DNA of 39,944 nt from a virus. The stretch covers positions 1 through 39,944 of the IMG/VR virus record IMGVR_UViG_3300025889_000291. One strand, given 5' to 3'. Both the position numbers and the translations under genes were made by a program. Below, one piece after another: positions 3,503 to 34,794 of the stretch (within the stretch, counting starts at the first letter, position 1; every line of letters starts with the position of its first letter). Below the pieces are notes generated by a model. The model was not told where the DNA came from. It did not search any database and saw only the letters and a list, made by a program, of their open reading frames with translations.

Positions 3503-3812
3503 GATCAACCCTGATAAACCGCAATCAATTTAATTTCTTTAGACTTACTGAACAAATTTAACCTGCGATTAACCTGTTTGGGTTTATCGGAGACTATTGG
3601 GATAGGCTAAACTGGCACGGAAATTGCACTACCGGCCGCGTGCAAGGATGCATACCTATACAACCAATCCGTTCTCATTATATATACACGCGAGACACAA
3701 CCTGTCCGCGATAAATAAAAATAAACTCGCCTTCGTTTTTTTTGTGGTTTATCTTTTCGTGATGTGATTAAAAGGCGCTCGGGATTTTTTTCGGCGACGA
3801 GGAGTGCCCACT

Positions 3813-4598
3813 ATGTCCAACGGTCTAGTAATCTATCGCGGCCCGAGTGTCCTCGACGGTTCGCCTATCGTCGTCATTGCCACTGGGCTAGGTTCCGGTT
3901 CGAGCAATCGAAAAACCGGGGCGCTTGTCCAGACTTGGATACTTCGCGAGGACGTGTCGCCTATCAAGGCGATCCAGAACGGGTCCGACGTTTCAATCTG
4001 TGGCGCTTGCCCACATCGCGGGCGTATTGAGGACGGGCGAAACGTGGGCCGGTCATGCTATGTTAACGTGGGCCAAGCGCCGCTTAACGTGTGGCGGACG
4101 TTCCACCGCGTACCGCTCGCCAATGGTAAGCCGCGTTCGGGATATCCTGAAGCTCGCCCAGATGAATTGTCGGCAATGTTTGCGGGGCGCTTGGTTCGCT
4201 TGGGATCATATGGCGATCCGGCGGCGGTTCCGGTCTGGGTATGGCAAGCGGTTATGGCGCAAGCGGACGGCGGGACCGGTTACACTCACCAGTGGAAGGA
4301 TGCCGCGCCCGAACTTGCTCAATGGTGCATGGCATCATGCGACAGTGAGGCCGACCGTGTTTTCGCCAAGCTCGTGGGCTATAGGACTTTCCGCGTCACT
4401 GCGCAGGATAGTCGGACGGACCGTGGCGAACGTGAAGTGATATGTCCCGCGTCGGATGAAGCGGGCAAGGTCACGCTTTGCGCGGCGTGCAAAGCGTGCG
4501 GCGGACTATCTGCGAAAGCTAAGGCGGACATTGTGATCACGGTTCACGGCCCGACCTATGCTAAGGCGAACGGCAGGCGGAACCTTGCCAACGTCTAA
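3813..4598 (+). CDS. Early phage protein, DUF7227-like, unknown function
   Basis: Starting at ATG 3813 (GGAG at 3801-3804, 8-base spacing) the product has 261 residues. It opens YRGPSVLDGSPIVVIATG, then QTWILREDVSPIKA, then SICGACPHRG...GRSCYVNVGQAP. This GPS-x-L-D-G-x-P-I-V-V-I-A-T-G and C-x-x-C-P-H-R-G layout recurs in phage proteins that I believe are classed as DUF7227. A second cysteine group near the C-terminus (CAACKACGG) could bind metal. It opens the rightward operon; the region is richer in GC than the replication genes. Confidence 0.65.
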   Translation: MSNGLVIYRGPSVLDGSPIVVIATGLGSGSSNRKTGALVQTWILREDVSPIKAIQNGSDVSICGACPHRGRIEDGRNVGRSCYVNVGQAPLNVWRTFHRVPLANGKPRSGYPEARPDELSAMFAGRLVRLGSYGDPAAVPVWVWQAVMAQADGGTGYTHQWKDAAPELAQWCMASCDSEADRVFAKLVGYRTFRVTAQDSRTDRGEREVICPASDEAGKVTLCAACKACGGLSAKAKADIVITVHGPTYAKANGRRNLANV

Positions 4599-4959: not shown

Positions 4960-5448
4960 ATGTATGAGCCTGTAAACTTGCGCCGCCGGGCCTGCTTCGA
5001 TTACTACGCGGGCGCTGAATGGACTCAATTCTACTCGTCAGGCGTAGGGCAGTCTCGCGATAGCAACGCGCTCGAACGCTCTAACTTTGTGTGTATGCTG
5101 AATGCTCTCGGAGGCGAGAGCGATACCGTTATCGTGGTAAGAGAAGGGCATTGGGCTGTCGGCTGGATTGAATGGATTGCGATCCACGAAACCGATGCGC
5201 GCGCGCTGGAGGAAGCTGACGAGATTGCCGGTGCGCTGGAAGATTACCCTGTAGTCGATGAAAGCCATTGGTCTGAATTGGAGATGGAAGAAGCGAATGA
5301 AGTCTGGGCGCAATGCTATGACGTTCGAGAACGGATTGCGTACATCCGTAAGCATCGGGATCAATTCGAATTCCATAACTTCGCTGATATGCTAGGCTGT
5401 ATTCGCGGTAATTACTTCGCTGGATACGCAAGCGACTTACTCTCTTAA
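4960..5448 (+). CDS. Hypothetical phage protein, 162 residues, acidic
   Basis: It starts at ATG 4960 after a good GGAGG site. The central region (about residues 58-90) reads VVREGHWAVGWIEWIAIHET, then an acidic helix and DYPVVDESHW. This order recurs in phage proteins of unknown function found near the GP88-type gene. The strongly acidic charge would suit a protein-binding early product, but no function can be assigned. Confidence 0.68.
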   Translation: MYEPVNLRRRACFDYYAGAEWTQFYSSGVGQSRDSNALERSNFVCMLNALGGESDTVIVVREGHWAVGWIEWIAIHETDARALEEADEIAGALEDYPVVDESHWSELEMEEANEVWAQCYDVRERIAYIRKHRDQFEFHNFADMLGCIRGNYFAGYASDLLS

Positions 5449-5466
5449 TAGGCTTTCGCTTTGATC

Positions 5467-5495
5467 CTATCTAGGGATAGAATGTTCCTAGATAG
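5467..5495 (+). promoter_or_regulatory. Perfect 9-bp hairpin between early genes
   Basis: CTATCTAGG (5467-5475) pairs with CCTAGATAG (5487-5495) around an 11-base loop. There is no T run, so it is more likely a processing or leader structure for the GP88-type gene than a terminator. Confidence 0.4.
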
Positions 5496-5531
5496 ATTGA
5501 GAGCGTGACCTATAACACACGGAGTAGAACC

Positions 5532-6161
5532 ATGACCGCCGTTCATATCTCAAAAATGACAGGCAAGCTTGACGGCCTACGCGCCATCAGCACTAACACC
5601 GTGACCAATCCGTTCTGTCAGAAGATGAATACGTCCGGCGATACCATATGCCGTCAGTGTTATTCCCATGGTATGCTGAATTCATACCGTAAGAACATGC
5701 AAGCCAGTCTGCAGCGCAATTCGGATCTGCTATCAGACCGCGTGCTGGATCAATCGGAATTGCCGACAATCCTAGATGCTTTCTTTCGGATCAACGCGCA
5801 TGGCGAGCTTATCAACGCAACACATCTGGAAAATATTTGCCGCATCGCAGAGCACAATCCGCATTGCAATGTGGCAGTGTGGACTAAGCGCAAAGATATC
5901 GTATCGCGTATGTTTGCCAAGCGGGCTAAGCCTAGCAATCTCATACTGATATGGTCTAATCCCAAGGTCGACGCGGTGGTGTACGATCCGCCGAAACACT
6001 TTGACCGAGTGTTCAACAACGTGTCCTATGAACACAAGCGCACCGAACAGAACTGCACCGGTCAAAAATGCCGCGATTGTCTGCTATGCTATAAGCTTGA
6101 TACAACCAAGGTAATCGTGGAAGCCGTGAAGCTTAACGGACGCACTGTCAAAGCCTCCTGA
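5532..6161 (+). CDS. GP88-family phage protein
   Basis: From ATG 5532 (GGAG at 5521-5524) the product is 209 residues. Diagnostic stretches are HISKMTGKLDGLRAISTNT, NPFCQKM, ICRQCYSHGML, AHGELINATHL, HNPHCNVAVWTKRKDIV and ILIWSNPKVD. These match the family I recall as Pfam GP88, named after mycobacteriophage L5 gp88. Paired cysteines near the N-terminus and in NCTGQKCRDCLLCY near the C-terminus suggest a metal or iron-sulphur site. Function is unknown. An upstream in-frame GTG at 5505 is less likely. Confidence 0.8.
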   Translation: MTAVHISKMTGKLDGLRAISTNTVTNPFCQKMNTSGDTICRQCYSHGMLNSYRKNMQASLQRNSDLLSDRVLDQSELPTILDAFFRINAHGELINATHLENICRIAEHNPHCNVAVWTKRKDIVSRMFAKRAKPSNLILIWSNPKVDAVVYDPPKHFDRVFNNVSYEHKRTEQNCTGQKCRDCLLCYKLDTTKVIVEAVKLNGRTVKAS

Positions 6162-7321: not shown

Positions 7322-7543
7322 ATGTCTGACTACATCACCATCAAGGCCGCCTCTAATCTGTTCGACGTGCCTGTCATGACCTTGCACAAGGCATTGCGTA
7401 ACAATAAGATTAACGGGGTACATGCTGGCACCGGAGGCGACTCTAAAGCATCGGGCCTAGATGGTCGGCTGGTGTATCACAATCTGGTCAGCGTGAGCAG
7501 CGTTATCAGGTGGAACGCTGACAGGATGAAAGATAAAGTGTGA
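7322..7543 (+). CDS. Small HTH-like DNA-binding protein, 73 residues
   Basis: ATG 7322 is preceded by AGGAGA. The N-terminus, YITIKAASNLFDVPVMTLHK, followed by ALRNNKINGVHAG and later GRLVYHNLVSVSSV, resembles excisionase/MerR-type winged-helix proteins: a helix-turn-helix from about residue 6 to 27, then a short wing. It may regulate the operon or act in excision, although no integrase is visible. Its stop overlaps the start of the first QV-repeat ORF as TGATG. Confidence 0.55.
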   Translation: MSDYITIKAASNLFDVPVMTLHKALRNNKINGVHAGTGGDSKASGLDGRLVYHNLVSVSSVIRWNADRMKDKV

Positions 7544-7752
7544 TGAATGATGTCAGGGACCAGGTCAGGGATCAGGTCTGGGATCAGGTCTTGGATCAGA
7601 TCAGGGATCAGGTCGGGGAGCAGGTCTGGGATCAGATCAGGGATCAGGTCTGGGATCAGGTCACGGATCAGGTCTGGGATCAGGTCAGGGATCAGGTCTG
7701 GGATCAGGTCTTGGAGCAGGTCACGGATCAGGTCGAGGAGCAAACTAGATGA
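7543..7752 (+). CDS. QV-repeat ORF 1 (69 residues)
   Basis: The ORF starts at ATG 7543, overlapping the HTH gene's stop (TGATG). After MNDV it consists of about 15 tetrapeptides X-Q-V-Z, with X mostly D and Z being R, W, L, G, T or E, and ends EEQTR. The stop overlaps the next start as ATGA, preceded by GGAGC. It has no signal or hydrophobic segment. Such tracts are known to me as internal parts of DUF6745 proteins; here the tract stands alone. Confidence 0.75.
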   Translation: MNDVRDQVRDQVWDQVLDQIRDQVGEQVWDQIRDQVWDQVTDQVWDQVRDQVWDQVLEQVTDQVEEQTR

Positions 7753-8051
7753 AACAGGTCACATATCAGGTCTGGGATCAGGTCAGGGATCAGGTCAGGG
7801 ATCAGGTCGGGGATCAGGTCAGGGATCAGGTCAGGGATCAGGTCTGGGCTCAGGTCTGGGCTCAGGTCGTGGATCAGGTCGGGGATCAGGTCAGGGATCA
7901 GATCAGGGATCAGATCAGGGATCAGGTCAGGGATCAGGTCGTGTATCAGGTCTGGGCTCAGGTCGGGGATCAGGTCGGGGATCAGGTCTGGGATCAGGTC
8001 TGGGATCAGGTCTTGGAGCAGGTCTTGGAGCAGGTCAGGGATCAAGTCTAG
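7749..8051 (+). CDS. QV-repeat ORF 2 (100 residues, longest)
   Basis: This ORF starts at ATGA with GGAGCAAACTAG before it and has about 25 X-Q-V-Z units. It ends without the usual Q-T-K/R cap: a TAG at 8049 replaces what would be a TGG (W) codon, and the frame would otherwise stay open for another 14 codons to about 8095. It therefore looks like a repeat ORF cut short by one substitution. Confidence 0.72.
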   Translation: MKQVTYQVWDQVRDQVRDQVGDQVRDQVRDQVWAQVWAQVVDQVGDQVRDQIRDQIRDQVRDQVVYQVWAQVGDQVGDQVWDQVWDQVLEQVLEQVRDQV

Positions 8052-8098
8052 GCTCAGGTTAGGTATATAAAACAACTCACGAACAGGAGTATCTAAAA

Positions 8099-8941
8099 AT
8101 GCGTGTATCTTTTGGGCATGCCGGATCGGCAGATCATACCGGAGAGGGTTGGGATTTCGAAGTAGCATTCGAGCCGACTCGATTCGATAAGAGCAAGTAC
8201 GTACTCAATGCCGATACCGGGGACGTGTTAGGTATCGTCGGCAAAGACTTCAATTGCGTCAGTCATGCTGAGTTCTTCGAGGGGATCGAGGACGGTTTCC
8301 CTGATGGATTCGGGTCGGCTACCACTCGAACCTTCACCAGTCGCAAAGGTGCTTGGGCATTGCGTGAATGGGCATTCGAGGGTATGCAGTCCCTGATCTC
8401 TACTGATCAGAAGGAAAGCTCACTGGTCTATAAGATCGTGGCGTGGCATGGTCTGGATGGTCTGACATCCAATAACGTCCTGTCCGGGTCGCGTCTGTCC
8501 TGGTGTCTTAATACCTGTGTATGGGGTGAAGATATCTCTCATATCCGCAGGAAGAACAGCCGACACTTTGATCTTGACAAGTTCCTTCTTGAAGTACAGG
8601 ATGGTTCTGTTATCTTCGCTCAGCATATCGAAGCCATGAAACGGATGGCGCAGCGTAAGATCACACTGGATCAGGCAGAAACGGTGATCAATAATATCAT
8701 CCCGTTCGAGCGTACCCAGAAGGCTATGATTGAACTGGCCGCAGATAATATGGACCAGTGGGGCAACAATACCTTCGGGCTGTATAATGCCTTCACTAAC
8801 TACGCAACCTATGCCGATGAACGGAATGGGTTTGCTATGCGAGACAGTTCAAACGATAATCAGATTGAACGCTTGCATTCCAGGTCATTTGATGTTATGA
8901 ACTGGGTCAACACCGCTGCATTTCAGTCGATTGCAGCTTAA
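8099..8941 (+). CDS. DUF932-like phage protein
   Basis: The 280-residue product contains YVLNADTGDVLGIVGKDFN, then AWHGLDGLTSNNVLSGSRLS, then LNTCVWGEDISHIRRKNSRH. This matches the DUF932 (phage/plasmid-like, TIGR03299) pattern: a domain that recalls an allele state, then HG-x-D-G-x-x-S-N-N and C-x-N-x-x. The function is not settled; members often sit in phage and plasmid accessory operons. ATG 8099 follows an AGGAG site. It lies between QV arrays 1 and 2. Confidence 0.8.
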   Translation: MRVSFGHAGSADHTGEGWDFEVAFEPTRFDKSKYVLNADTGDVLGIVGKDFNCVSHAEFFEGIEDGFPDGFGSATTRTFTSRKGAWALREWAFEGMQSLISTDQKESSLVYKIVAWHGLDGLTSNNVLSGSRLSWCLNTCVWGEDISHIRRKNSRHFDLDKFLLEVQDGSVIFAQHIEAMKRMAQRKITLDQAETVINNIIPFERTQKAMIELAADNMDQWGNNTFGLYNAFTNYATYADERNGFAMRDSSNDNQIERLHSRSFDVMNWVNTAAFQSIAA

Positions 8942-8959
8942 CATGAGGAGACTAAGCAT

Positions 8960-9310
8960 ATGAAAACCTTCACCAACATGGCCGCTCAAGGTGACTTCAT
9001 CATCTTCCGGGTTGACACAATCCCGGAGAACCTAGAGAAGATCCAGCCGGATCAAGGCTATCTGACCATCGCTCACAGTGAGACCGGGCATGATCATGTC
9101 ATGCTGGCTGAACGCACCACCGCATACAAGGATCGTATGACCTCGGACGACAAGCTGTTCGAACTGTTCCTGTCAGTCGAAGCACCCACCGAGATCATTC
9201 ACAAGCGGTCCTATGATACCCATGAAACCCTGCTTGTTCCCGCTGGTAACTATGTTATCAAGCGCCAGCGTGAGTACACCCCGGAGGGATATCGCCGGGC
9301 TGCTGATTGA
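8960..9310 (+). CDS. Small partner protein with ETGHDHV and REYTPEG motifs
   Basis: The 116-residue protein begins MKTFTNMAAQGDFIIFRVDT and contains IAHSETGHDHVML, then KRSYDTHETLLVPAGNYVIK, then RQREYTPEGYRR. From memory, this family (H-S-E-T-G-H-x-H-V and R-E-Y-T-P-E-G) is commonly encoded beside DUF6745 genes in bacteria and phages. The histidine/glutamate set and predicted beta content suggest a cupin-like metal site, which is inference. A terminator follows at once. Confidence 0.65.
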   Translation: MKTFTNMAAQGDFIIFRVDTIPENLEKIQPDQGYLTIAHSETGHDHVMLAERTTAYKDRMTSDDKLFELFLSVEAPTEIIHKRSYDTHETLLVPAGNYVIKRQREYTPEGYRRAAD

Positions 9311-9318
9311 TCTAAACT

Positions 9319-9353
9319 AGGGCGGGCTGTGTCTGATATGGCCCGCCCTTTCC
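9319..9353 (+). terminator. Rho-independent terminator
   Basis: AGGGCGGGC (9319-9327) pairs with GCCCGCCCT (9341-9349), followed by TTCCTT. The 9-bp GC-rich stem ends the transcript after the partner gene and stands directly before QV ORF 3. Confidence 0.78.
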
Positions 9354-9370
9354 TTGGTGGAGCAAACAAA

Positions 9371-9577
9371 ATGAATCAGGTCGGGTATCAGGTCAGTGAT
9401 CAGGTCAGGGATCAGGTTTGGGGTCAGGTCTGGGATCAGGTCTGGGATCAGGTCGATGGTCAGGTCAGTGATCAGGTCAGGGATCAGGTTTGGGGTCAGG
9501 TCGATGGTCAGGTCAGTGATCAGGTCAGGGATCAGGTCAGGGATCAGGTAAAAAATCAGTCTAACAACTCAGTATAA
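9371..9577 (+). CDS. QV-repeat ORF 3 (68 residues)
   Basis: ATG 9371 follows GGTGGAGCAAACAAA, the same joint that separates the chained repeat ORFs, although no repeat ORF ends here. The sequence [20 protein letters not shown] continues for about 15 units, with several D-G and S-D pairs in a higher-order pattern. It ends VKNQSNNSV rather than the usual Q-T-K cap. An earlier in-frame ATG at 9329 lies inside the terminator and is unlikely. Confidence 0.72.
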   Translation: MNQVGYQVSDQVRDQVWGQVWDQVWDQVDGQVSDQVRDQVWGQVDGQVSDQVRDQVRDQVKNQSNNSV

Positions 9578-9602
9578 CATCATCAACTTAGGGAGACGTG
9601 TC

Positions 9603-10466
9603 ATGTTGAATAACCTCAACGACGAACAAATCAAAGGTATCGAAGTCTGCCGTGACAAGTGGATCAAGATTGGTCTACAGACAGGGCCGATTGACCGTGA
9701 TGCTGCTATCGTAGCAGTTAACAAAGCCTACAAGCGTGCCGGTCTTGAGCATCCCAAGGAAGTTGTGTTCTGTTCTAGCCCTCTGGATATGGATAAGAAG
9801 ATCCGAGGGGCAAGCAAAGATCAGCACAACTTCGTTTCCAGCAACGGATTTGCCAACTGCTGGACCGGTTGGGTAGCATTTACCGACTACTTCCACACCT
9901 ATACAGACGTGAAGAACTTGGAAGTATTCGAGGGTCTGCGTGATCTGTCTTACAACTGTGGGTTTGTCAGCTTCTTCGATACTCACGTCTTTATCTCGGA
10001 ACGTCCTGAGTATATCAAGATGGATGATACCGGTCTCACCCACTGCGAAAACGGCCCTGCTATCCGATATGCTGATGGGTTCGAAGTGTACATCTGGCAT
10101 GGTGTCCGTGTCCCTAAGTCTTGGATCACCGACGGGCCTGACATTAAGCAGGCTCTCCACAACAGCAACCTAGAAATGCGTCGGGTAGCATCCGAGATCA
10201 TCGGCTGGGCTAAGATCCTGGATCATTATCAGGCCGAGGTTATTAACGAGGACGCAGATCCTCAGATCGGTACTCTGCTCAAGGTCAATATCCCAGATGT
10301 TGGCGAGGAGTATTTCCTTAAGGTTCTGTGTGGAACCGGTCGTACGTTTGCTATCCCTGTTCCTGAGACGGATGAGGATGGTAAGCTTATCGACACCGCC
10401 CTGGCTGCTAATGCTTGGACGTATGGTATCAAGCCTTGGGAGTACAAGCCGGAAGTCAGAACCTAA
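9603..10466 (+). CDS. DUF6745-like protein without the internal QV tract
   Basis: The 287-residue protein reads RDKWIKIGLQTGPIDRDAA near the N-terminus, then SSPL (about residues 60-63), WTGWVAFTDYF, ISERPEYIKMDDTGLTHCEN, GPAIRYADGFEVYIWHGVRV, MRRV and finally AWTYGIKPWEYKPEVRT. This is the domain order I recall for DUF6745. Known members often carry a D-Q-V-R/W repeat tract between the S-P-L and W-x-x-F-x-D-Y-F elements. Here only about 26 ordinary residues lie there, and the repeats are encoded separately. Function is unknown. A terminator follows. Confidence 0.75.
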   Translation: MLNNLNDEQIKGIEVCRDKWIKIGLQTGPIDRDAAIVAVNKAYKRAGLEHPKEVVFCSSPLDMDKKIRGASKDQHNFVSSNGFANCWTGWVAFTDYFHTYTDVKNLEVFEGLRDLSYNCGFVSFFDTHVFISERPEYIKMDDTGLTHCENGPAIRYADGFEVYIWHGVRVPKSWITDGPDIKQALHNSNLEMRRVASEIIGWAKILDHYQAEVINEDADPQIGTLLKVNIPDVGEEYFLKVLCGTGRTFAIPVPETDEDGKLIDTALAANAWTYGIKPWEYKPEVRT

Positions 10467-10472
10467 CAAGCC

Positions 10473-10503
10473 GAAGGCAGGATATAATCCTGCCTTCTCT
10501 TTA
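10473..10503 (+). terminator. Rho-independent terminator
   Basis: GAAGGCAGGA (10473-10482) pairs with TCCTGCCTTC (10488-10497) around a 5-base loop, followed by TCTTTACC. It ends the DUF6745-like gene and precedes the largest QV array. Confidence 0.8.
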
Positions 10504-10525
10504 CCTAAGTCAGGGAGCAAACAAA

Positions 10526-10735
10526 ATGAAGCAGGTCTGGGATCAGGTCAGGGCTCAGGTCGGGGATCAGGTCTGGGATCAGGTCGATGGTCAGGTCGGG
10601 GATCAGGTCGCGTATCGGGTTAGGAATCAGGTCAGGAATCAGGTCGGGGATCAGATCGGGGTTCAGGTTGGGGATCAGGTCTGGGATCAGGTCTGGGATC
10701 AGGTCAGGGCTCAGGTCCGGGGGCAAACAAAATGA
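10526..10735 (+). CDS. QV-repeat ORF 4 (69 residues)
   Basis: ATG 10526 follows GGGAGCAAACAAA just after the DUF6745 terminator. About 16 units follow [16 protein letters not shown], including one degenerate A-Y-R-V unit, and the ORF ends RGQTK. Its TGA overlaps the next ATG. Its length equals that of QV ORFs 1, 7 and 10. Confidence 0.72.
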
Positions 10736-10965
10736 ATCAGGTCGGGTATCAGGTCAGGGCTCAGGTCGAGGTTCAGGTCAGGGCTCAGGTCTGGGATCAG
10801 GTCTGGGATCAGGTCGGGAATCAGGTCGCGTATCAGGTCTGGGATCAGGTTAGGGCTCAGGTCTGGGATCAGGTCAGGGCTCAGGTCAGGGCTCAGGTCT
10901 GGGCTCAGGTCTGGGATCAGGTAGGGGCTCAGGTCGGGGCTCAGGTCAGGGAGCAAACAAAATGA
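10732..10965 (+). CDS. QV-repeat ORF 5 (77 residues)
   Basis: Coupled by ATGA to ORF 4, it has about 18 units from [16 protein letters not shown] to GAQVREQTK. Alanine often replaces aspartate in the first variable position here (R-A, W-A, G-A pairs). The joint before it has GGGGGC in place of GGAGC, a weaker ribosome site. Confidence 0.7.
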
Positions 10966-11015
10966 ATAAGGTCTTAGTTCAGGCCAGGGCTCAGGTCGGG
11001 GGGCAAACAAAATGA
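10962..11015 (+). CDS. QV-repeat ORF 6, minimal (17 residues)
   Basis: The reading [17 protein letters not shown] keeps both end caps but only about three units between them. It sits between two joints in the same coupled chain. It is probably a deletion product of a longer repeat ORF whose frame and caps were preserved. Confidence 0.55.
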
Positions 11016-11221
11016 ATAAGGTCGAGGTTCAGGTCAGGGCTCAGGTCTGGGATCAGGTCAGGGATCAGGTCTGGGATCAGGTCAGGGCTCAGGTCAGGAA
11101 TCAGGTCTGGGATCAGGTCTGGGATCAGGTCAGGGCTCAGGTCGAGGATCAGGTCTGGGATCAGGCCAGGGATCAGGCCAGGGCTCAGGTCGGGGCTCAG
11201 GTCGGGGGGCAAACAAAATGA
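11012..11221 (+). CDS. QV-repeat ORF 7 (69 residues)
   Basis: Coupled by ATGA, it has 16 units starting [16 protein letters not shown] and ending GGQTK, with two units where valine is replaced by alanine (Q-A). The same MNKVEV opening and the same joint are used by ORF 8, so the two are probably a recent duplication. Confidence 0.7.
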
Positions 11222-11439
11222 ATAAGGTCGAGGTTCAGGTCAGGGCTCAGGTCTGGGATCAGGTCAGGAATCAGGTCGCGTATCAGGTCTGGGATCAGGT
11301 CGCGTATCAGGTCAGGAATCAGGTCGCGTATCAGGTCAGGGATCAGGTCAGGAATCAGGTTGGGGGTCAGGTCAGGGATCAGGTCTGGGATCAGGTCTGG
11401 AATCAGGTCAGGGCTCAGGTCAGGGAGCAAACAAAATGA
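11218..11439 (+). CDS. QV-repeat ORF 8 (73 residues)
   Basis: It has about 17 units with a strong secondary pattern of R-N, A-Y and W-D pairs (residues 17-45) and ends REQTK. It is coupled to its neighbours by ATGA at both ends. Confidence 0.7.
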
Positions 11440-11651
11440 ATAAGGTCTTAGTTCAGGTCAGGGCTCAGGTCTGGGATAAGGTCTGGGATCAGGCTGATGG
11501 TCAGGTCAGGGCTCAGGTCGCGTATCAGGTCAGGAATCAGGTCGGGGGTCAGGTCGGGGCTCAGGTCGGGGATCAGGTCTGGAATCAGGTCTGGAATCAG
11601 GTCTGGAATCAGATCAGGGCTCAGGTGTCTGGTGATATTGGGAATCACTAA
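11436..11651 (+). CDS. QV-repeat ORF 9 (71 residues), last of the chain
   Basis: It opens [16 protein letters not shown], identical at first to the minimal ORF 6, and continues with about 15 units including three W-N pairs. It ends VSGDIGNH instead of the Q-T-K cap, leaving the repeat at a new junction before the membrane microprotein gene. Confidence 0.7.
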
Positions 11652-11667
11652 CGAAAGAAAATAATAC

Positions 11668-11799
11668 ATGAATACTTTGGAGTCACTAGGTCTTGTTGAC
11701 TGGTTTATATATCTTGGGTTAATATCGGTTTACCTATTGGTATTCTGGTTCCTGCATCTAGTGAACCAAGCGGATAACGGAGAACTTGATGATCATTAA
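11668..11799 (+). CDS. Membrane microprotein, module copy A (43 residues)
   Basis: From ATG 11668 the product opens [20 protein letters not shown], with one hydrophobic helix (about residues 11-32), and ends with an acidic tail DNGELDDH. It shares layout and the W-x-I-Y-L pattern with the ORF at 13124-13261. Its end overlaps the next start. It is the first gene of a three-gene module that occurs twice. Confidence 0.6.
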
Positions 11800-12019
11800 T
11801 AGTATGTTTCTTGTTGGTACGGACGAAGATGATCTTGACTTTGATCAAGATTTCGAGGATATTTTATGGACCGAAAAGAGTATGTTTATCGTTGAAGAAA
11901 ATATCAGGTTGAAGCCCTGGGATGTAGACTTCAACAGAGGGGTGTGGTCAGATGAAGACGCACAAACAGAAAGGGAAATCCAATCCTTTCGCAAAACAAT
12001 TGAGGACGAGTCTGTATAA
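11789..12019 (+). CDS. Acidic protein, module copy A (76 residues)
   Basis: ATG 11789 follows GGAG by 6 bases, as in the second copy. The product is very acidic (DEDDLDFDQDFEDILW), then VEENIRLKPWDVDFNRGVWS and DEDAQTEREIQSFRK. The paralogue at 13251-13463 shares VEENI-x-x-K-P-W-D and RGVWSDE. The last third also encodes another protein in a different frame. Function is unknown; such acidity could allow a DNA-mimic role, but that is speculation. Confidence 0.65.
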   Translation: MIINSMFLVGTDEDDLDFDQDFEDILWTEKSMFIVEENIRLKPWDVDFNRGVWSDEDAQTEREIQSFRKTIEDESV

Positions 12020-12116
12020 ACCCAAGGTCGCACAGAACAAGAGTAAGTACGACAGAAAAAAACAGGGAAAGGTGGATCATGGTCTTAGACGAAACATCGC
12101 TAGACTGGACGATTGA
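11952..12116 (+). CDS. ArfA-like small basic protein, module copy A (54 residues), overlapping frame
   Basis: Within and beyond the acidic gene, another frame reads MKTHKQKGKSNPFAKQLRTS, then LYKPKVAQNKSKYDRKKQGK. A GAGGGG site precedes the ATG and is identical in the second copy. The K-x-N-P-x-A-x-x-L...LY-x-x-x-V-x-x-N-K-x-K-Y-x-R-K pattern aligns by eye with the ribosome-binding core of ArfA (alternative ribosome-rescue factor A). This would act at stalled ribosomes with a host release factor. The similarity is short, so it is a proposal. The end overlaps the MazG-like start. Confidence 0.5.
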   Translation: MKTHKQKGKSNPFAKQLRTSLYKPKVAQNKSKYDRKKQGKVDHGLRRNIARLDD

Positions 12117-12588
12117 AACGCTGGTTCTTGATGCTAACAGCTTCGCCGGTTTAACCTGGAATGAAGCTCTTATGGCCGAGAACATGCGACGGGCTGCTGA
12201 TTATCTATCAGAAATGAAAAAGGAAAAGGAACAGATCATGGATATGGACAAGTATCAGACTGAATCACTCAAGACCGCCGTGTATCCCGAGGGTCAGGGC
12301 AAACTGTATACGGTTCTGGGTCTGGCGAATGAGGCCGGTGAAGTAGCCGGTGTGGTTAAGAAGATTATCCGGCAGGATGTTCATCTTCCTCGCTGCCTGA
12401 CAGAAGAAGAAAACGACAGGATGAACCAGGAAAAGATCCGCGCTGAACTTGGCGATGTGCTATGGTACTTGGCTGCTGTAGCAAAAGAGTATAACCTTAA
12501 GATGTCTGATGTCGCTCAGTATAACCTGGATAAACTAAAGGACCGGGCAGAGCGTGGTGTTATTAAGGGGTCGGGTGATAACCGATGA
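12079..12588 (+). CDS. MazG-like nucleotide pyrophosphohydrolase
   Basis: The 169-residue ORF has a MazG-type domain from about residue 56: YQTESLKTAVYPEGQGKLYT, then GLANEAGEVAGVVKK (E-A-G-E motif), then RAELGDVLWYLAAVAKEYN (E-x-x-D metal site). Such phage enzymes hydrolyse NTPs or dNTPs, and possibly ppGpp. The first 53 residues are an extra acidic/helical extension; an internal ATG at 12238 would give only the MazG part. The stop overlaps QV ORF 10 as ATGA. Confidence 0.78.
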   Translation: MVLDETSLDWTIETLVLDANSFAGLTWNEALMAENMRRAADYLSEMKKEKEQIMDMDKYQTESLKTAVYPEGQGKLYTVLGLANEAGEVAGVVKKIIRQDVHLPRCLTEEENDRMNQEKIRAELGDVLWYLAAVAKEYNLKMSDVAQYNLDKLKDRAERGVIKGSGDNR

Positions 12589-12794
12589 ATGAGGTTAATA
12601 ATCAGGTCAGTGAGCAGATCATGGGTCAGGCCAGGCATCAGATCATGGATCAGGTCAGGAATCAGGTCTGGGATCAGGTCTGGTATCAGGTCAGGAATCA
12701 GGTCAGTGGTCAGGTCAGTGGTCAGGTCTGGGGTCAGGTCAGTAGTCAGGTCTGGTATCAGGTCTGGGATCAGGTCAGGGGGCAAACAGGATGA
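12585..12794 (+). CDS. QV-repeat ORF 10 (69 residues)
   Basis: Coupled by ATGA to the MazG-like gene, it opens MNEVNNQVSEQIMGQARHQI, the most divergent units in the window, then settles into regular Q-V units and ends RGQTG. About 16 units give the same 69-residue length as ORFs 1, 4 and 7. Its stop overlaps the zinc-finger gene that follows. Confidence 0.7.
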   Translation: MNEVNNQVSEQIMGQARHQIMDQVRNQVWDQVWYQVRNQVSGQVSGQVWGQVSSQVWYQVWDQVRGQTG

Positions 12795-13009
12795 CTATCA
12801 CATCACCGTTAAAAGCTATCCGACAAAACTGTATCGAGTGTTGTGGAGGCAGCAAGCATGAGGTCAGTCTATGCCCCGCTACTGGATGCTCGCTCCACCC
12901 CTTCCGCTTTGGTAAGAATCCATATAGTAAACGTACACTTTCAGACGAACAAAGAGAAGCTGCTAGGGTACGCCTACAGAACTATCACGAAGCGAATAAA
13001 ACAACATAA
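12791..13009 (+). CDS. Small zinc-finger phage protein (72 residues)
   Basis: It is coupled by ATGA to QV ORF 10. The sequence LKAIRQNCIECCGGSKHEVS, then CPATGC and LHPFRFGKNPY, is a recurrent phage pattern: K-A-I-R-x-x-C-x-x-C, G-G, C-x-x-x-x-C, P-[FY]-R-x-G-x-[NR]-P. The cysteines probably bind zinc. Members are common in phage replication or regulation regions; the exact role is unknown. Confidence 0.72.
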   Translation: MTITSPLKAIRQNCIECCGGSKHEVSLCPATGCSLHPFRFGKNPYSKRTLSDEQREAARVRLQNYHEANKTT

Positions 13010-13026
13010 CTAAACATAAAACAGAG

Positions 13027-13103
13027 GCTTCCGTAGCTCAACTGGATAGAGCATGAGACTTCTAATCTCAGGGTTGCAGGTTCGAGCCCTGCCGGGAGCA
13101 CCA
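13027..13103 (+). tRNA. tRNA-Arg (anticodon UCU)
   Basis: A full cloverleaf is visible: acceptor GCTTCCG (13027-13033) with CGGGAGC (13093-13099, one T-G pair), anticodon stem GAGA/TCTC around loop CTTCTAA with anticodon TCT, a T arm with GGTTCGAGCCC, and an encoded CCA at 13101-13103. It reads AGA and, by wobble, AGG. AGG is the main arginine codon of the QV-repeat ORFs on both sides of it. Confidence 0.92.
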
Positions 13104-13123
13104 ATCTATCTTAAGGAAACTAT

Positions 13124-13261
13124 ATGCTATCAGACTATCCCGAACCATGGACGGTCAGCACTTGGATCATTTATCTGCTGGTGTTAGGGTGCTATTTCGG
13201 TGTACTATATGTATTAAGCGCGGCAGAGCGTATCAATTATGGAGAATCAAATGATGATTAA
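13124..13261 (+). CDS. Membrane microprotein, module copy B (45 residues)
   Basis: ATG 13124 follows AAGGAAA. The product opens MLSDYPEPWTVSTWIIYLLV, has one hydrophobic helix (about residues 13-33) and ends NYGESNDD. It matches the layout of the ORF at 11668-11799: short polar N-terminus, W-x-I-Y-L helix, acidic tail, and overlap with the acidic gene. Confidence 0.6.
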   Translation: MLSDYPEPWTVSTWIIYLLVLGCYFGVLYVLSAAERINYGESNDD

Positions 13262-13463
13262 GAGCGGGTTCGTACCTGACACACTAGAGGATTATGACGA
13301 GTTCGATGACTGGGTATGGACTGATAGGGATACGGAATCAGTCGAAGAAAATATCAAGATCAAACCATGGGATCTTAATATCGGCAGAGGGGTATGGTCA
13401 GATGAAGAGACCGAAACACAAAAAGAAATCGAATCCTATCGCCAAAGATTTGATGACGAGTAA
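13251..13463 (+). CDS. Acidic protein, module copy B (70 residues)
   Basis: It starts at ATG 13251, six bases after GGAG as in copy A. The sequence DTLEDYDEFDDWVWTDRDTE is followed by VEENIKIKPWDLNIGRGVWS and DEETETQKEIESYRQ. The C-terminal half is clearly homologous to copy A, while the N-terminal half has diverged but kept its acidity. Its last 62 bases also encode the ArfA-like protein in another frame. Confidence 0.65.
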   Translation: MMIKSGFVPDTLEDYDEFDDWVWTDRDTESVEENIKIKPWDLNIGRGVWSDEETETQKEIESYRQRFDDE

Positions 13464-13548
13464 ATACAAACCAATAGCATTACCCAATAAGAAGAAAGAA
13501 CAGAAAAAAGTCGGGTACTCTAACCAAGACACAGGTGATAGCAAATGA
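13402..13548 (+). CDS. ArfA-like small basic protein, module copy B (48 residues), overlapping frame
   Basis: The second frame reads MKRPKHKKKSNPIAKDLMTS, then KYKPIALPNKKKEQKKVGYS. The first 24 residues match copy A (MK-x-x-K-x-K-x-K-S-N-P-x-A-K-x-L-x-T-S-x-Y-K-P), whereas the K-Y-x-R-K part is less well kept, so this copy may have changed role. It shares the AGAGGGG ribosome site. Its stop overlaps QV ORF 11 as ATGA. Confidence 0.48.
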   Translation: MKRPKHKKKSNPIAKDLMTSKYKPIALPNKKKEQKKVGYSNQDTGDSK

Positions 13549-13730
13549 AACAGGTCAAGTGGCAGGTCAGGGCTCAGGTCTGGGATCAGGTCGGGGATCA
13601 GGTTGAGGCTCAGGTCTGGGATCAGGTTGAGGATCAGGTCAGGACTCAGGTCAGGACTCAGGTCAGGGATCAGGTCGAGGGTCAGGTCTGGGATCGGGTC
13701 TGGGATCAGATCAAGGAGCAAACTAGATGA
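13545..13730 (+). CDS. QV-repeat ORF 11 (61 residues)
   Basis: Coupled by ATGA at both ends, it opens [20 protein letters not shown] and has about 14 units, with R-T and E-A/E-D pairs, ending KEQTR. It is the last repeat ORF before the replication genes. The joint after it (AAGGAGCAAACTAG) is the same as after ORF 1. Confidence 0.7.
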   Translation: MKQVKWQVRAQVWDQVGDQVEAQVWDQVEDQVRTQVRTQVRDQVEGQVWDRVWDQIKEQTR

Positions 13731-33786: not shown

Positions 33787-34794
33787 TTATACAGGATAAT
33801 TCATTAGGCCAGATGAAGACACCGGCTGAGTTACTTGGTCTCGTGGATCGACTGTCATCGGACCCATCGGACCCATAATGGTTTGTTGACCTTGGGCTGG
33901 TGGGGCAAACTTTTGGGTTTGGGCATACTGAGTAGCAGCCTGAGTAGCCCCACCCGGTTGAATACCCGCTGTAGCACCCATAGCAGCAACAGGGGCAGCC
34001 ATACCTCCCATAAGAGAGCGTTGCTGTTCTACGCCGGTATTGACTTGCTGGCCTACATCCGCTACCTGTCTAGCAATCTGTTCTCGACCTGTCATACCAG
34101 AAGTCTGGATCTGAGCACGCTGACGTTGGGCTTCACGCTGATACTGTTCCGCCGCCCGCTCTAGTGCATCAATGTTTTGAGATACGCCGCCGACTGCGCC
34201 AGTGATATCCTGAATACCGCCTGTTAGCTGTTGACCTAGAGCCTGTTGACCGCCCATAAGACCGGCCTGACCGGCAAATAGAGTAGTCGGCTGACCTTCA
34301 CCCGGAGCACCGATTGCACCTTGAATTGCGCCTTGACCAGCACCAAGTGCCTGTTGACCGGCCATAAGACCTTGTTGACCTGTCTCTAGACCTGTCACCC
34401 CGGTTTGAATATTCTGTTGACCGGCCATAAGACCTTGTTGACCTGTCTGTAGACCTGTCACCCCGGTTTGAATATTCTGCTGACCTGTCTCTAGACCGGT
34501 GATACCAGTCTGGATAGGAGAAAGATCCGGTGCCTGTTGAGTCTGATTAGATTGTACGACCGTGGTTGTACCGGGCGCGAAGGAACCAGAACCATAGATG
34601 TTAGACAGAGCGTTATACGAAGCCTGTTGTTCAGGGGTTGCGCCAGTAATATACTGCTGAAACTTTTGAGTAGGATCGGCGGAGAACTGGCCACTGTATC
34701 CAGTTGCTTGGCGAAGGGCGGCATGATACTGGGGTAGACCAGCCTGCACTTCGGCCTGTGAATAGTACAATTGCCCGTTAACTGCTGTAGGCAT
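33787..34794 (-). CDS. Repeat-containing late protein (335 residues)
   Basis: The N-terminal 80 residues look folded (LYYSQAEVQAGLPQYHAALR). Then come 21-residue repeats of type G-L-x-T-G-Q-Q-x-x-x-x-G (about residues 95-170), matched by 63-bp DNA repeats, then a charged helix (residues 210-260) and a Gln/Gly-rich C-terminus. The layout suggests an elongated structural protein between the fibre genes and internal virion genes. Confidence 0.58.
   Translation of the reverse strand: MPTAVNGQLYYSQAEVQAGLPQYHAALRQATGYSGQFSADPTQKFQQYITGATPEQQASYNALSNIYGSGSFAPGTTTVVQSNQTQQAPDLSPIQTGITGLETGQQNIQTGVTGLQTGQQGLMAGQQNIQTGVTGLETGQQGLMAGQQALGAGQGAIQGAIGAPGEGQPTTLFAGQAGLMGGQQALGQQLTGGIQDITGAVGGVSQNIDALERAAEQYQREAQRQRAQIQTSGMTGREQIARQVADVGQQVNTGVEQQRSLMGGMAAPVAAMGATAGIQPGGATQAATQYAQTQKFAPPAQGQQTIMGPMGPMTVDPRDQVTQPVSSSGLMNYPV
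34351..34480 (-). repeat. 63-bp tandem repeat inside the late gene
   Basis: Copies start at 34351 and 34414, with a partial third from 34477. Each encodes 21 residues of the G-L-x-T-G-Q-Q type. The first two copies differ at very few positions, so the repeat is recent and may vary in number. Confidence 0.75.

Follow-up and report, generated by a model that had tools for sequence, protein, structure and literature searches.

A 12-bp repeat in gene 54 of the mycobacteriophage Tweety encodes a tetrapeptide of a fixed AA and two variable residues (G/W/Q, then S/Y), with variation concentrated at codon positions 1 and 2 (PMC2884959). Changes in the number of repeats tune the counter-defence activity of gp54, and repeat-number mutants get past a prophage defence that includes a putative (p)ppGpp synthetase (PMC9262239, PMC8549241). 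PMC2884959 also reports a variable number of short repeats, with a 24-bp element in one gene, for VR2 of bbp36 from the Bordetella phage BMP-1. Here we describe eleven small genes of the IMG/VR virus record IMGVR_UViG_3300025889_000291, which encode a 12-bp repeat with the tetrapeptide unit X-Q-V-Z and are referred to as QV open reading frames (QV ORFs); the window, i.e. the whole stretch of DNA that was analysed, is the entire record of 39,944 bases. From our point of view, it is reasonably likely that these ORFs are genuine genes, linked by translational coupling, which encode short repeat polypeptides, that they represent the detached tract of DUF6745 (PF20530) proteins, and that their products would serve as binding chains working with DUF6745.

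The QV repeat resembles that of Tweety gp54 in its 12-bp unit, its two fixed and two variable residues and the skew among codon positions. In contrast, Tweety gp54 is a single protein with N- and C-terminal regions of its own and a fixed AA instead of QV, whereas the QV ORFs of the window consist of repeats nearly end to end and have no unique flanks at either terminus. The bbp36 gene of BMP-1 is likewise a phage gene with a varying count of short repeats, but its 24-bp element lies inside one gene. Tweety gp54 matched no Pfam family up to an E-value of 10 and obtained no significant score with profiles of DUF6745 or of the AQ gene introduced below; we therefore regard the relationship as a likeness of working and not as family membership. 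Another counterpart is provided by those DUF6745 proteins that carry the same tetrapeptide tract internally (cis form), from which the window differs in that its tract lies outside the DUF6745 gene, as eleven separate genes. PHROG 33514, a 56-position family of unknown function, gave a weak profile match to QV ORF 5 (E 6.4e-6, two stretches). In the literature searched, we found no mention of DUF6745 or of the repeat itself and no precedent for a repeat domain that is either part of a protein or split into a coupled gene array, the Tweety work being the only one that looked relevant; a screen for transcription activator-like effector (TALE)-style repeats covered repeat lengths of 30-43 only (PMC5472282). 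The detached QV form hence appears to be new, the DUF6745 kind of protein being known already.

The QV ORFs of the window are the following:
7543-7752, plus strand: QV ORF 1, 69 residues; its start codon and the stop of a helix-turn-helix-like gene at 7322-7543 have one base in common
7749-8051, plus strand: QV ORF 2, 100 residues; ATGA overlap with ORF 1, no QTK end
9371-9577, plus strand: QV ORF 3, 68 residues; a GTG at 9329 would extend it
10526-10735, plus strand: QV ORF 4, 69 residues
10732-10965, plus strand: QV ORF 5, 77 residues, ATGA-coupled
10962-11015, plus strand: QV mini-ORF 6, 17 residues, ATGA-coupled to both neighbours
11012-11221, plus strand: QV ORF 7, 69 residues, ATGA-coupled
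11218-11439, plus strand: QV ORF 8, 73 residues, ATGA-coupled
11436-11651, plus strand: QV ORF 9, 71 residues; last member of the chain, no QTK end
12585-12794, plus strand: QV ORF 10, 69 residues; begins in the ATGA of the stop of a MazG-like gene, and its end overlaps the gene at 12791-13009
13545-13730, plus strand: QV ORF 11, 61 residues; its orthologue lies at 81-254 of contig L003

A preliminary description of this DNA had reported eleven such ORFs in 2.26 kb of coding sequence, which is confirmed here with about 180 units in a combined 2262 nt. In the ten longer ORFs, our tract scorer counts 179 units, 157 of them strict QV/QI. Their tract scores are 53.5-98, whereas 20 dinucleotide-shuffled versions of the window scored 11 at best. 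The conserved start that had been noted, M-[NK]-x-V, is present in all eleven, and the conserved end Q-T-[KRG], ascribed to most, in eight, the exceptions being the ORFs that terminate at 8051, 9577 and 11651. The TAG of QV ORF 2 (8049-8051) interrupts a tract that continues for one further unit, possibly as the result of a recent truncation. Opposite the QV blocks, one frame of the minus strand is largely open as well (LIPDLIPDL), which simply follows from the 12-base unit.

The relation to DUF6745 follows from the organisation of the locus and of its counterparts in other viruses. The record contains one DUF6745 match (9912-10463), within a gene that scores 77.1 bits against a cut-off of 27:
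9603-10466, plus strand: DUF6745 gene, 287 residues, N- and C-terminal domains joined without a QV tract
The family was not among the Pfam families listed for the three of the eleven QV ORFs that were scanned (for the first, the best 25 of 27). In IMG/VR, a DNA pattern for the QV repeat matched at least 118 stretches, the counts derived from which are those of a sample, and the stretches are of two sorts, namely DUF6745 proteins with an internal tract or arrays of stand-alone QV ORFs. DUF6745 was found in 68 virus records (19 + 39 + 11, one counted twice), or 69 with the window, and 41 of these 69, picked chiefly by size and inspected wholly or partly, were compared. In 19 of them, which include near-copies and correspond to about 14 distinct phages, one to 17 stand-alone QV ORFs (at least five QV/QI units each, so that mini-ORFs escape) accompany a DUF6745 protein without internal tract (trans form). 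The remaining 22 have an internal tract and no stand-alone QV ORF in the part inspected, which for 13 of them was 40-99% of the length; one of the 22, G079, has its tract only partly inside the inspected stretch and was counted as cis from a separate DUF6745 search. Records outside this whole-record reading include G014, G029, G037 and G106, and in two of them, the 3.6-kb loci of G029 and G037, a tract-less DUF6745 adjoins QV ORFs. The occurrence of separate QV genes in such numbers, which the preliminary description had found unfamiliar, is thus shared by other phages.

Cis proteins consist of an N-terminal domain of about 80 residues, 8-86 tetrapeptide units and a C-terminal domain of about 210 residues. 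In an alignment of 36 tract-bearing and 17 tract-less DUF6745 sequences, the sequences on either side of the gap align wherever they are present in the contig, and the tract-less form can therefore be regarded as the two domains joined. In the corresponding tree, 16 of the 17 tract-less sequences fall into one supported set, alongside one tract-bearing row, and the supported branches force at least three switches between cis and trans. Complete cis tracts (28) range from 11 to 86 units with a median of 31.5, and stand-alone chains (158) from 6 to 50 with a median of 14. The earlier assignment of the QV tract to DUF6745 proteins is borne out by the cis forms, and from these sequence comparisons we conclude that the QV arrays are the detached middle tract of such proteins. 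The cis/trans rule further lends strong indirect support to the idea, also raised in the preliminary description, that the chains act in trans with another product of the operon. L110, the sole record with two DUF6745 genes among 40 records with QV ORFs, has both of them in the tract-less form (3531-4544 and 5150-6094), flanking two QV ORFs.

Among annotated phages, tblastn with a tract-less DUF6745 returned 11 records. Of the four inspected, two have other tetrapeptide tracts in cis and two a non-repeat insert. Where other DUF6745 proteins have the QV tract, the one of a mycobacterial prophage repeats Q-L, with W/R/G and then D/G as the next two residues, and the one of an uncultured phage repeats S-L, with W/R/G/E next and a fixed S after it:
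4356-5633 of L259 and 3182-4627 of L260: DUF6745 genes whose tracts have S-L and Q-L, respectively, as the core
Since Q-V is here replaced by Q-L or S-L beside similar residues of the W/R/G/E type, the pattern is kept at the protein level over different DNA. In the same database, tblastn with one QV ORF retrieved only the cis prophage gene and with another QV-like ORF nothing, in searches weakened by BLAST masking; the window DUF6745 as the lone query found no relative among viral contigs. In a scan of bacterial genomes, the loci with DUF6745 were mostly cis among the matches listed, which also included two contigs of metagenome-assembled genomes of Bacteroidota with stand-alone QV ORFs, one of them (L221) together with a tract-less DUF6745 and AQ. 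Of ten neighbours tested at four bacterial loci, eight have PHROG matches, including one to an integrase, which suggests that these loci are prophages.

A second gene travels with DUF6745:
8960-9310, plus strand: AQ gene (MKTF..AAQGD..HSETGHDH), 116 residues, His-rich, PHROG 27831 (unknown function)
In 24 aligned AQ sequences, Q-G, H-x-H and one more H are invariant. In the 32 of 68 non-redundant DUF6745 loci that have 1.2 kb on either side, AQ is encoded on the same strand as DUF6745 and no more than 700 bp from it in 30, namely in all 19 cis loci and in 11 of the 13 trans loci, so that it adjoins both forms in most cases. In the two others, AQ is 2.8 kb off on the opposite strand (L020) or adjoins the other DUF6745 copy of its record (L110). 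The cyanophage Ma-LMM01 also carries an AQ-DUF6745 pair (MAP_175, MAP_174), in which a non-repeat insert replaces the tract; tblastn with AQ against annotated phages gave one record. AQ had no match above cut-off in Pfam and none in NCBIfam, and neither AQ nor DUF6745 matched the profiles of PADLOC-DB 2.0.0. On the far side of AQ from DUF6745, three phages have a DUF932 gene (8099-8941 in the window, 5664-6617 in L046, 2005-2958 in L083), which in L046 and L083 belongs to PHROG 1221, as does that of the window.

Given this arrangement, the question arises whether the chains need DUF6745 at all. One could imagine that they act alone, as diversifying small binders (e.g. counter-defence decoys) which share an origin with the cis tract and merely travel with DUF6745. 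The diversification of the variable residues described below would fit this idea, as would two records with QV arrays, 102.6 kb and 80.3 kb in length, in which neither DUF6745 nor AQ was found. It is, however, at odds with the strict alternation of cis and trans in the 41 records and with four relatives of the window: L006-L009, whose helicases are 75-78% identical to that of the window, have no detectable DUF6745 or AQ in their entire records and no QV ORF within the 11-21 kb examined in each. We hence hold chains that act independently to be rather unlikely. The DnaB-like helicase of the window otherwise finds its nearest counterparts in phages of Roseobacter, Pelagibacter and Puniceispirillum (top identity 39.5%), a group of HMO-2011-like podophages.

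The two large records just mentioned are among several observations that count against our own interpretation. Neither DUF6745 nor AQ was found in a 249.8 kb record with a single QV-like ORF, and DUF6745 was not found in 21 of the 40 records with QV ORFs, many of which are short; with an in-house profile, three further records (G008, G015 and G016) gave matches that were weak or fragmentary. The jumbo phage G014 (368.8 kb) combines stand-alone ORFs with a DUF6745 whose N-terminal part is QV-like but degenerate, and its AQ is about 17 kb away. Structure prediction is of similar tenor: AlphaFold2 models a stand-alone chain (QV ORF 5) as a lone helix (predicted local distance difference test score 86.7, predicted template modelling score 0.40), and in a DUF6745 with tract, the tract scores 31-38 and both domains are predicted well. 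Short-read assembly is a possible source of altered QV arrays, the limits on the selection statistics given below point in the same direction, and a defence component as the most plausible target of the chains is suggested by analogy alone.

Whether the repeats encode proteins under selection is best judged from their variation, as an open frame alone is weak evidence in a repeat of 12 bases, a multiple of 3. Across 30 loci, in counts of units that are not independent because units get copied, one-base variants of the V codon were synonymous in 294 cases and non-synonymous in 206, compared with an expectation of 167 and 333. For the Q codon, the synonymous excess is weak (47:248 vs. 37:258 expected). 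The two variable codons show the opposite, with synonymous to non-synonymous counts of 16:796 and 24:926 against expected values of 117:695 and 109:841. Mean entropy in the variable codons is higher at bases 1 and 2 than at base 3 in all 30 loci (1741 units), and proline accounts for eight of 3482 variable residues. The comparison of QV ORF 11 with its L003 orthologue, which is one pair with 43 differences in repeats that align poorly, gave proportions of synonymous (pS) and non-synonymous (pN) differences of 0.184 and 0.262 and a ratio of the respective rates (dN/dS) of 1.53; the two alternative forward frames gave ratios of 0.45 and 0.70. For the neighbouring primase and helicase, pS was 0.164 and 0.197, pN 0.026 and 0.011, and dN/dS 0.14 (primase) and 0.05 (helicase). 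DNA identity was dropped as evidence of divergence: the QV gene is 75.9% identical between the window and L003 and the downstream region 92.6%, yet the 80 bp upstream show only 73%. When tracts were searched without requiring an ORF, 33 stops occurred in 182 runs, which together comprise 10,596 residues; visual inspection placed nearly all of these stops at the ends of runs or in runs that were off frame. Of the remaining five frames of the same tracts, three contain many stops. The Q-V pattern is moreover maintained by different codons in different phages. The claim of separate genes that keep one reading frame is thus upheld by the codon changes and by other phages. The QV ORFs are, judged from their sequence, most likely translated, and there is strong evidence that two residues in each unit have diversified in amino-acid sequence while Q-V has stayed nearly fixed.

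These data also bear on the possibility that the array is a selfish or neutral coding minisatellite, in which stop-free 12-base units multiply through slippage and recombination while the ORFs themselves serve no purpose. Copy number is indeed high, units and whole cassettes are copied, the number of hexamers per dipeptide is close to one within most loci, and whole units or ORFs are what distinguishes some near-identical contigs, assembly artefacts being possible in the latter case. None of this would account for the synonymous bias at V, the avoidance of proline, the shortage of synonymous changes in the variable codons or the distribution of stops among the frames, nor for the fact that ribosome-binding leaders are kept and cis/trans alternation holds, and we consider a functionless minisatellite very unlikely.

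The ORFs had been described as capped genes, with a conserved start and, in most, a conserved end. Nine of the eleven QV ORFs in the window begin on or inside the stop of the preceding gene, eight via ATGA and one via a shared base. QT[KRG] is found in all eight that end in the ATGA of the next gene and in none of the other three, from which we conclude that the conserved end is mainly a translation signal. The two ORFs at whose start no coding gene ends (9371 and 10526) are instead fronted by a leader directly before the ATG:
9359-9370, plus strand: leader GGAGCAAACAAA, preceding the uncoupled QV ORF 3
10514-10525, plus strand: leader GGAGCAAACAAA, preceding QV ORF 4
Translated in frame, GGAGCAAACAAA reads E-Q-T-K, the ending of the QV ORFs. 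The conserved ends are thus probably in the main a ribosome-binding leader that is also translated, plus the ATGA overlap of the next gene, and M-[NK]-x-V is simply the initial unit of the repeat, in which the start codon lies. Since the start is a repeat unit and the end mainly a translation signal, the "capped" appearance is no evidence for protein caps, and this part of the preliminary description is not supported as it was stated. In a survey of 18 loci, which leaves out ORFs shorter than 30 residues, 71 of 124 stand-alone QV ORFs begin right at the end of the preceding QV ORF or overlap it, and 89 have an overlapping downstream ATG by the rule of our script. Overlaps between QV ORFs measure 1, 4, 8, 11, 14 or 17 bases, usually with a single length per phage, and some of the ORFs have no clear Shine-Dalgarno-like match ahead of them. 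A pattern for the QTK-stop/start junction of the window had zero matches in viral contigs, the junction varying among phages.

A role of the repeats at the DNA or RNA level, as hot spots for cassette-shuffling recombination or as a translation-coupling spacer with incidental protein, could draw on QV ORFs that join unrelated genes via ATGA (the MazG-like gene and the gene at 12791-13009) or flank a duplicated block in the window, but is highly improbable given that Q-V is kept with differing codons among phages, becomes Q-L or S-L inside DUF6745, and varies in favour of amino-acid changes at two residues only. That block comprises three small ORFs with products alike by eye, at 11668-12116 and 13124-13548, with QV ORFs left of the first copy and right of the second. 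A tRNA-Arg (TCT) gene (13027-13103) is located between two QV blocks, and a 63-bp tandem repeat (34351-34512, 97% match in the best row) inside the minus-strand ORF at 33787-34794.

Database searches provided few hints on fold. Foldseek with the DUF6745 model found no solved PDB fold at E <= 0.001 (best Z 3.4), and a PDB sequence search with AQ and DUF6745 gave only matches with E above 0.4. Ten PDB matches of the repeat profile, of which the only strong one was to an ARID domain-containing protein (1.4e-9), were set aside as low complexity. QV ORF 5, the sole QV ORF scanned against PADLOC, gave weak Cas2 matches (best E 0.005), which, like the Cas2, F-box and similar weak matches of QV ORFs in general, were put down to composition. 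A four-residue period would, by reasoning, be ill-suited to a straight coiled coil.

Returning to the interpretation we prefer, in which the chains work with DUF6745, the two DUF6745 domains of the window are joined directly, and the tract would be made as many separate chains, mostly of about 14 units. Each chain may form a structured scaffold that displays a row of variable dipeptides, and the chains would function with DUF6745, and possibly AQ, as an interchangeable binding set; it is this binding of chain and core that we infer. As the variable residues change fast, the partner could be a changing protein of the host or of a rival phage, most plausibly a defence component, and recombination of whole cassettes and units might both enlarge the arrays and supply variants. 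A more specific version, which we regard as doubtful, is that of a repertoire in which each chain bears its own row of about a dozen variable dipeptides, cassettes are shuffled and expanded under positive selection and chains are loaded singly onto a common DUF6745-AQ core, recognising a shifting range of defence proteins of the host or of prophages. Such a repertoire, if true, would represent a virus-encoded recognition system based on variable chains.

Overall, the diversification of residues around a near-fixed Q-V suggests an interaction that is driven by an arms race; the AQ-DUF6745 pair that accompanies it also occurs in bacterial contigs. The trans model predicts that the chains bind the core, and could offer a handle on tetrapeptide-repeat counter-defence proteins such as Tweety gp54.

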